From Apophysomyces variabilis (taxonomy: Eukaryota > Mucoromycota > Mucoromycetes > Mucorales > Mucoraceae), in the NCBI GenBank assembly GCA_002749535.1, contig MZZL01000408.1, positions 2,186,631 through 2,250,630 on the forward strand: a stretch of DNA of 64,000 nucleotides, read 5' to 3'. Below are positions 1 to 1,893 of the stretch, piece by piece. A program made the position numbers and the translations under genes. Below the pieces are notes generated by a model. That model worked only from the letters and a program-made list of their open reading frames with translations. It had not been told where the DNA came from and made no database searches. The first letter of the stretch is position 1. The number at the start of each line of letters is the position of its first letter.

Positions 1-831
1 GCAAGGACATTCCGCAAGAAACGGGAGCGACGAAAGAAGGTAAATAAGCCAGCTACAATATGTTGTGCTTATGTGATAATTGCCACAGTCGAATACAGAG
101 GTTCTTGCAGCCGAAGAGCAATTGAAAGAAGCCTCGATGGAGAAAGCTATGTCAGTCCAAGATATTATTCGTTGTCAAAAGGTAATCGTTAGTCTTTTTT
201 GGACAACTATCGATAACATACACATTTATAGATTGGTCGGAGCTGTAGAAAGACGCTCAGGGATTTTTACCATTCAAACAGGTGGCACAAAGAAAAGGTG
301 ATACAAGATCTCTACAAGGAGAGAATATACGATAGAGTGGCTGCAAACGAGAGAAGAAAGATCGCGATGGAAGCGGGGCCACATGATAGCGGAAGGAGGG
401 TAATACCAGTTATGGCGATTGGCACCCAAGGGACGTGTGTTGGGTCCAGATTGAAAGGCCATCCTAAGCGTGGAGGCAAATGGTTACGGGCGAGACACCG
501 TAGGTACACCCCAGTGGCAATGACAGATGAGCATCGTAGCTCGCAAACATGCGTATTCTGTTTTCAGAAGATAATTCACCCAAAAGGGCGTCGTTACAAG
601 GAAATTAAATGGCGTACTATGAATGGAAGCTCGCGCTGCGTCAACTCGAAGTGTGTTACTTTTAAAGCAGGGCGTACGACTCAAAATCGGGACGTTCAAG
701 CCGCCGTGGCCATCGGACTAGCGGCGATCAGCAACCTATTTTCTGCAGAGAGGATAACGTTGCCACCATTTGATCCCAGCCATTTTGACGCTGGAATATC
801 CAATATTGCCGATACCACCGTTCAAAGGTAA
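1..831 (+). CDS. Fanzor/TnpB-like RNA-guided nuclease, C-terminal part (5' end outside window)
   Basis: Three in-frame exons are readable: 1-39, 89-181 and 232-831, with GT-AG introns at 40-88 and 182-231; the reading phase closes across both. The protein has the TnpB/Fanzor C-terminal layout. A helical arginine-rich stretch (residues LRDFYHSNRWHKE) comes first. Then comes the RuvC-II glutamate in TDEHRSSQTC (GAG at 529-531), a zinc ribbon with CVFC and CVNSKC pairs, and the RuvC-III aspartate in NRDVQAA (GAC at 691-693). The RuvC-I aspartate and the N-terminal guide-binding domains lie before base 1, so intactness cannot be judged. Known Fanzors are eukaryotic RNA-guided DNA endonucleases carried by transposons. 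The stop is TAA at 829-831. Family assignment is from motifs; activity is not shown. Confidence 0.8.
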
Positions 832-970
832 CCGACATATTTAAAGTGTGGCAGCTTTAACAGCTAATATATCTTTACTATAGGTGCGTACAGTCGTCTT
901 CAGAAAGCCACCATACTGGTAGGTGTTACTGTTAGTTATCTGCACAAGTAATTTGCTTATTTTATAAACA

Positions 971-1004
971 GGATGCGAAGGCCGGCATCCGTCGCTATGA
1001 CGGA
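971..1004 (+). other. Two abutting perfect hairpins downstream of the Fanzor-like gene
   Basis: GGATGC (971-976) pairs with GCATCC (985-990) around an 8-base loop. TCCGTC (988-993) pairs with GACGGA (999-1004) around a 5-base loop. The stems share bases 988-990, so the hairpins are adjacent alternatives or form a stacked unit. They lie 140 bases past the nuclease stop codon. In TnpB and Fanzor systems the guide RNA scaffold and transposon right end usually lie just downstream of the ORF, so this is a candidate piece of that RNA or end. That role is inference. Confidence 0.35.
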
Positions 1005-1088
1005 CATATAACAGGTTTCTTTTTTTAAATTCAGTCTCATTGTGTGACTCACAACAATGCCTATTATAGGAATTTGTTATACTAATAA

Positions 1089-1511
1089 ATGAAGTACAAA
1101 GGCCGATCCGCACAAAAGGTCATAAAGACCTATCTGCAGCATGGACTGCTACAAACATTGTACTCGTATGGAGCAAAGTTACCAAAGTTTTCTAAACAAG
1201 GCCTTGATATGCATGAGCTCATAGTATCCATCAATACATCCGTTACTCAACAATCGACTTGGGAAGTGTTCAAAGCACTACCACTCGTGCACAAACTCCT
1301 ACTCGATGCCCTCGATCAAAACTTGGATGATATACTCCGGTCGCTCTGCATGCAATCTTTTTTCTTACCTTGTCTGCGGCATGGTCATTTCACCATGTGT
1401 TCCTTTATTTTACCATGCTCCGGTCCATTTGAGGCTGACATGAAAAGCAGATTCGCCAATAAAGATACAATTGCTCGTAAGATTCATGTCGGTTTTTCTC
1501 ATTTCAGTTGA
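1089..1511 (+). CDS. Unrecognised 140-residue ORF in mobile-element debris
   Basis: An uninterrupted ORF starts at ATG 1089, 258 bases after the Fanzor-like stop. The first 85 residues look protein-like: basic start, then helical leucine-rich segments. The part after about residue 92 is rich in F, C and H and looks like read-through of noncoding DNA, so an exon may end near 1360. I recognise no domain. It could be an accessory ORF of the same element, an exon of a host gene, or chance. Confidence 0.25.
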   Translation: MKYKGRSAQKVIKTYLQHGLLQTLYSYGAKLPKFSKQGLDMHELIVSINTSVTQQSTWEVFKALPLVHKLLLDALDQNLDDILRSLCMQSFFLPCLRHGHFTMCSFILPCSGPFEADMKSRFANKDTIARKIHVGFSHFS

Positions 1512-1554: not shown

Positions 1555-1893
1555 TTACAGTGCAAATGTGCTTTTTTGAACGTGATGTTGCAGTGATTGT
1601 GTACGAATTTTGTACAGGGTGGAGTCAGAGACCTTGAAACGATCAAATTGTTCCGTGAGGCTTTTCATCATTAGATCCAAGGTGATGGACGCGTTATCGT
1701 CAATGAAAGCCGTCAATTGTTGCCGATGTGTTTCATTCAACAGTCTTGGTCTGCCAACACCTGCCTCTGGCGCTTTGCGCGGCTGGATACTGTCGCTTGT
1801 GTCGTTTTCATCCTTTTTTACCCAATTATCAACTGTCAAGCGCGGTATGCCAGGCTTGGCACCGGCTATGCCAGCTGAGAGCTGCTTTTCATG
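1555..1893 (-). pseudogene. Transposase DNA-binding (HTH) fragment, Tc1/mariner-like
   Basis: The minus-strand frame is open from about 1893 to the stop at 1555. It carries a helix-turn-helix style segment: GIPRLTVDNWVKK, then a GRPRLLNETHRQQL segment and VSDSTLYKI. The GRPR-L-x-x-H-x-x-x-L arrangement is typical of the second HTH of Tc1/mariner/IS630-type transposases and related Mucorales repeats. No DDE/DDD catalytic domain follows at lower coordinates, so this is a solitary N-terminal fragment. The first in-frame ATG is at 1839, but the similarity begins upstream of it, which supports a broken copy. It is antisense to the Fanzor-like gene and seems an independent insertion remnant. Confidence 0.5.

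Follow-up and report, generated by a model that had tools for sequence, protein, structure and literature searches.

Two names used for Spizellomyces punctatus, the structurally solved Fanzor1 nuclease SpuFz1 and the element-borne protein SPu-1-1p, presumably designate the same protein. SPu-1-1p has been described as a product of 633 amino acids (aa) encoded by one open reading frame; its element measures 2.1 kb, with inverted repeats of 33 bp and putative duplications of TA (PMC3627910). In Mucor circinelloides, the Fanzor1 elements named MCi-2 (Bao and Jurka 2013, PMC3627910) carry the Fanzor in a nearly identical (99%) 6-kb 3' region, and one of their subfamilies includes part of a Crypton transposase. 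Inverted repeats were not recognizable, duplications of 11-12 bp, ATAATTNNNN(N), were described, the 5' ends are fuzzy and differ, and the classification was left open. In addition, PpFz of the Mucorales fungus Parasitella parasitica carries a cyclophilin-binding part (PMC11423790), and Crypton recombinases are mentioned in PMC10711439. Fanzor1 in Crypton-like Mucorales elements is already known in outline (MCi-2, PMC3627910; PMC10711439). Here, we describe a Fanzor1-type gene running into the left edge of a 64,000-nt stretch of Apophysomyces variabilis DNA (hereafter the window; assembly GCA_002749535.1, contig MZZL01000408.1, positions 2,186,631 to 2,250,630), which differs in its size, its DYG active-site motif, its precise junctions with matching empty sites, and its membership in one of two freshly spread sister families.

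We propose that this gene resides on a non-autonomous, Crypton-derived DNA element served by a recombinase in trans, with a guide RNA at its right end and nuclease cutting of empty sites, a scheme that we consider probable. Boundaries, shared-core insertion, a recombinase remnant, intact catalytic residues and recent spread are read from the sequence, and from there we infer mobilisation, guide, target motif and cutting.

Searches covered a genome of 38.7 Mb in 126 contigs, window base 1 being C94:2186631. The gene model, built on L009 (the same contig read leftward; an L009 coordinate minus 5631 gives the window coordinate), comprised seven exons and 1307 codons ahead of the stop. The original prediction of an intron-bearing Fanzor/TnpB-like nuclease was supported: TDEHRSSQTC, CVFC, CVNSKC and NRDVQAA all lie in an open frame at window 232-831, both proposed in-frame introns are present (Table 1), and the RuvC-I part, said to be cut off by the window edge, was located on the same contig, with Asp976 (GTDYG) at C94:2186424-2186426, ~ 205 bases left of window base 1. 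The residue it had named RuvC-II Glu, in TDEHRSS, is indeed present, but by the definition in PMC10711439 it represents the alternative Glu of Fanzors; the canonical RuvC-II Glu would lie ~ 50 residues further upstream. Chance occurrence was excluded, the 199-aa frame being 100% protein-identical at 10 genome places, window included. Because two further introns are probable past the span first predicted, the stop at 831 is probably mere read-through.

The best homologue, P0001 (1285 aa, hypothetical protein, Apophysomyces ossiformis), aligned with the window gene product over residues 4-1292 at 41% identity, which upholds the gene model; after window 919, where three frames are possible, it favours the one giving VAMT. 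Exact 8-residue words from one sister element of the searched genome covered 1276 of the 1285 residues of P0001, which is the full-length protein of the sister family; this match places the host at Apophysomyces ossiformis or a species very close to it within the Mucorales. The spacing in the window protein (D976, x214, SS, C1195-C1198-C1224-C1229, x11, RD1241-1242) follows the Fanzor1/TnpB superfamily pattern D-x(125,275)-[TS][TS]xx-[C4]-x(5,50)-RD (PMC3627910), within a RuvC nuclease fold with an inserted zinc ribbon. The alternative Glu stands six residues ahead of the zinc finger (E1188-HRSSQT-C1195) and a pattern search recovered it from 16 homologues out of 25; like all catalytic residues, it was invariant in the 10 aligned rows. 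The best solved relative by profile and fold was SpuFz1 (PDB 8gkh, 9ceu-9cez), with which the protein has in common the RuvC and zinc-ribbon half, the DEY/H-x-[TS]S-xx-C motif and a C-N-P-x-C second knuckle in the profile; by contrast with SPu-1-1p, it spans about 1307 aa and several exons, with DYG and Crypton-type ends. It also shares the catalytic triad, the zinc ribbon and D-hydrophobic-G in RuvC-I with IS607/IS605 TnpB. A Pfam scan of the exon-5 piece gave PF07282 at 12.8 bits, under the 26.3 cut-off, and assigned no family to the full protein, while phmmer searches with pieces of the protein matched no PDB chain, those of PpFz1 (9cf0, 9cf1) included.

The published Fanzor fingerprint combines DPG in RuvC-I, near exclusive though not absolute, with a Glu six residues before the zinc finger, D-hydrophobic-G (Y among the residues named) being typical of TnpBs (PMC10711439). 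In place of DPG, the window protein carries DYG, as did 19 of the 25 homologues (DPG in 2, DRG in 2, DHG in 1, no motif found in 1). All 23 homologues with an organism name came from Apophysomyces or from genera that we take to belong to the Mortierella group. A protein search from the DPG member P0009 returned, among the matches listed, only P0009 itself and P0002. Compared with the Fanzor descriptions consulted (PMC3627910, PMC10711439, PMC11423790, PMC10432273), both DYG in RuvC-I and the large size of the protein (about 1300 aa) are novel.

Transposon ends, which the original prediction had suggested looking for, were found on both sides: comparison of copies placed the left end near TAGGGTATAACAGG, and the right end is sharp (Table 1). 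The left 305 bases matched at 24 places and the right 155 bases at 19, some partially, and 12 copies retained exon 5 as well as a left and a right end, at a spacing of 6.5-6.7 kb. Exon 5 was protein-identical in 10 copies and 98-99% identical in 4. The sister family, at 61% in exon 5, occurs 12 times, its 12 left ends matching at 93-100% and its 12 right parts, over their final 2.4 kb, at 99.96-100%; two sister copies compared in full had 4961 bases in common at 99.9%. Judged by these identities, both families have spread recently. Exons 1-5 read open in both the window copy and the C95:3306 copy. Exon 2 of the C39 copy contains 4 gap bases, and exon 1 of the C95:1211 copy is interrupted by a stop; neither gap nor stop was seen in 7 of 14 other copies (three compared over all five exons, the rest partly). 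Copy number is probably underestimated, because the assembly breaks within these elements, as seen from three left ends at the very start of contigs (C48:1-129, C112:1-124, C15:1-114). A right end at 99% also occurs at C44:228337-228484, on a contig for which no Fanzor match was listed, possibly as an orphan end or deletion derivative. More broadly, the genome is rich in Fanzors, with at least 73 zinc-ribbon matches and at least 115 rows related to exon 5 (overlapping sets).

Insertion sites were well defined in both families. The left flank of the window family reads A[T/G]GTACT (A in 15/16, G and T each in 13/16, ACT in 16/16), with no comparable motif after ACT among 14 right ends, and that of the sister reads RAAATACC, 12 copies following it with two single-base exceptions in all, and the right flank of the sister varies after ACC, with G first in 11/12. 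The two bases after ACT were equal at both ends in 7 of 12 window-family copies (shuffle p 0.009; the count omits the C71 copy, whose right end lacks the T, and copies without both ends in hand), and the three bases after ACC in none of 12 sister copies. When the joined flanks of the window copy were searched in the genome, 48 rows were obtained: at least 38 crossing the junction (a lower bound, the best 40 of 59 candidates having been scored), 2 from the copy itself and 8 small right-hand pieces. Eight empty sites were aligned and all were unbroken at the junction, with TAC-A against TAC-T at both ends of the filled site, and with ~ 28 additional bases some 17 bases right of the junction. Like Cryptons, both families use a short core, ACT or ACC[G], as insertion point and produce no consistent target duplication, and this junction pattern points to short-core recombination of the kind performed by tyrosine recombinases rather than to DDE-transposase duplication; the two-base agreement fits an exchanged overlap. 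In terms of published descriptions, the element resembles MCi-2 in its probable Crypton remnant and lack of recognizable inverted repeats, but differs in its sharp 5' end, its empty sites and the absence of a consistent junction duplication.

The repeat hosting the insertion (L009:1-109 joined to window 1084-1153), whose further junction-crossing copies are counted above, lies in C27, C79, C95 and C107 at 4674-4676 bases from a match of another Fanzor family; given this constant spacing in four places, the window element seems to lie nested within the terminal part of another Fanzor element.

Inside two element copies, we detected matches to the Crypton recombinase family PF16787, at C95:1215555 (31.2 bits) and C94:825294 (23.9 bits), and the 5' part of the element matched the recombinase in L093 (tblastx 5e-21); stop-free pieces of the remnant, searched alone, gave no match. 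This 5' part is read as holding a decayed Crypton tyrosine recombinase of the Ndc10_II type. Fungal Crypton elements likewise combine short shared-core insertion with such a recombinase, but no intact one was seen in the window family, and because the remnant is broken where seen, movement in trans would be required. In the sister family, no more than 0.7 kb precedes the Fanzor start on the 5' side, and its copies had no listed match to PF16787. As for other Fanzor1 genes, the carrier is a eukaryotic transposon, here of Crypton type, and not IS607, no search aimed at a serine recombinase having been made. In the same genome, PF00589 matched 18 times, and we take the 10 matches lying in frames of 1272-1371 aa to be DIRS-type retroelements; one of the 18, probably retroelements, is a long frame at C94:2174410-2174916, ~ 6.2 kb left of the element. 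Fanzors of another lineage also lie near Crypton tyrosine recombinases, in L094:932-2590 (GVDPG) and L093 (GVNPG) (C43:222300-225400, C10:29300-36600), that of L094 directly preceding a frame with PF16787 and GCR1_C.

According to our model, a Crypton recombinase acting in trans would excise or copy the element, probably as a circle with an expected junction of GTTATACT joined to TAGGGTATAAC, which would then be inserted through recombination at ACT. A right-end transcript running past the end into the flank would serve as guide RNA, the motif left of the element (A[T/G]GTACT; RAAATACC in the sister) would act as target-adjacent motif, and the Fanzor would cut empty copies of the site, repair from a filled copy keeping or multiplying the element. 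According to PMC10432273, known Fanzors cut DNA next to a 5' motif, directed by a guide located past the scaffold's 3' end, and by analogy the guide would begin at window 1084; its first 14 predicted bases recur without mismatch in 5 of the 8 empty sites that were aligned. The right end folds into a candidate guide-RNA terminal stem (fold z of -2.6 for 965-1084 and -1.45 for 935-1084), preceded by a hairpin whose 11-nt core GTCGCTATGAC is common to the sister family, where the flank differs yet still pairs. We found no hairpin shared by every Fanzor in the genome, GTCGCTATGAC occurring only in L015, L025, L037 and L066 of 30 sequences and in a diverged form in L072, and Rfam over L009 gave nothing at gathering thresholds. 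Just past the C-terminus, other Fanzor lineages (L057, L059, L060, L061, L062, L064, L067) share G+C-rich hairpins, with CATCCC-GGA-GGGGTG in five of their sequences and a variant in L067, and GGCGTGG...CCGCGCT in six (not L067); these are possibly the guide-RNA scaffolds of those lineages.

Several observations qualify the proposed scheme. The GTCGCTATGAC hairpin segment is coding in P0001, the sister right end folds barely better than shuffles (z -1.11; 28 of 200 as good), and the ACA of empty sites against the ACT of filled ones calls for a tolerant target-adjacent motif. Furthermore, genome-wide Crypton recombinases (41 rows hand-merged into 31 places) lie within 6 kb of a Fanzor at 4 places, two of them in one family, for roughly 2 expected by a rough estimate, which is weak evidence by itself. 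Finally, the right-end stem may instead represent recombinase-binding arm sites, with the left-flank motif as a core half-site of the recombinase and not a target-adjacent motif. We regard this as quite possible, though we lean away from it: the octamer ATAACAGG recurs at the left end (GGTATAACAGG) and both element ends form a short inverted repeat, such repeats resembling those of tyrosine-recombinase sites, but the stem is complementary at 11 of 14 positions as DNA and at all 14 as RNA through G-U pairs. Moreover, the left-flank motif of insertion doubles as the target-adjacent motif in elements with TnpB or Fanzor, and arm sites and a guide RNA are not mutually exclusive.

The Fanzor could also be a passenger with no nuclease role in spread, copy number being explained by the tyrosine recombinase alone and the protein being kept for a different role or not at all. 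The departure from the near-exclusive DPG (PMC10711439), the gaps or stops in the remaining 7 of the 14 copies compared and the lack of strong purifying selection on recent changes within the family (e.g. 7 non-synonymous versus 4 synonymous differences between the window copy and the C95:3306 copy) speak for it. We nevertheless hold it unlikely, given the invariant catalytic residues, the strong constraint between families in exon 5 (non-synonymous pN 0.28 versus synonymous pS 0.92) and the D-hydrophobic-G of TnpBs, where Y is among the residues named (PMC10711439). It is very improbable that a DDE transposase, be it mariner, MuDR or another, moves the element and leaves short duplications of the ACTNN kind: such movement would accommodate the two-base agreement in 7 of 12 copies, the MuDR-like nature of other Mucorales Fanzor elements (PMC3627910) and a mariner-like helix-turn-helix (HTH) frame just right of the element, but the sister agrees in none of 12, AT, the most frequent form at the left end, occurs there in 4 of the 5 mismatching window-family copies, A stands in the 8 aligned empty sites at the position of the T of both junctions, and the HTH frame sits outside the element. 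That frame (window 1555-1893, minus strand) matched HTH_32 at E 3.7e-7 and 31 bits, under the Pfam cut-off of 33.7. Further along the window, frames with PEX6 and fungal-transcription-factor domains were observed.

Table 1. Positions of the Fanzor gene, the element and its candidate RNA structures in the window
Feature	Position	Strand	Remarks
Right part of 6.6-kb element	1..1083	+	left end ~C94:2181110; right end ...GTTATACT at window 1083
Exon 3, 3' part of Fanzor gene	1..39	+	RuvC-I Asp976 ~ 205 bases left of window base 1
Intron GT..AG, 49 nt	40..88	+	
Exon 4	89..181	+	
Intron GT..AG, 50 nt	182..231	+	
Exon 5	232..827	+	alternative catalytic Glu1188, C4 zinc ribbon (C1195, C1198, C1224, C1229), RuvC-III Asp1242
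Probable intron	828..883	+	compared with sister protein P0001
Probable C-terminal exons 6 and 7	884..1000	+	probable intron near 919-971; last donor and frame uncertain
CCGTC-GCTAT-GACGG hairpin	989..1003	+	candidate guide-RNA hairpin; may simply be coding
RNA stem, 14 pairs (1007-1020 with 1068-1081; three G-U)	1007..1081	+	RNA folding; closes two bases from element end; may be the terminal stem of a guide RNA or else arm sites of the recombinase
Right flank, first 70 bases	1084..1153	.	repeat hosting the insertion; would supply guide part of right-end RNA

The combination of DYG with the alternative Glu means that the DPG part of the published fingerprint fails for a fungal clade, which searches by DPG pattern would overlook. 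With two families of nearly identical copies, some apparently intact, and with both the ends and the flank motifs precisely defined and matching empty sites at hand, the guide, the target motif and a role in copy retention become predictable base by base. We also advance, as a tentative and rather doubtful extension, that the copy number of Cryptons that have lost their own recombinase is driven by giant Fanzor1s (about 1.3-1.5 kaa) with a TnpB-like DYG active site, which would form a separate clade within the Mucoromycota. As an element may insert into a repeat present in many copies, its guide could be directed at dozens of empty sites simultaneously, and if this extension were true, the nuclease would act as a homing or gene-drive-like amplifier across the genome.
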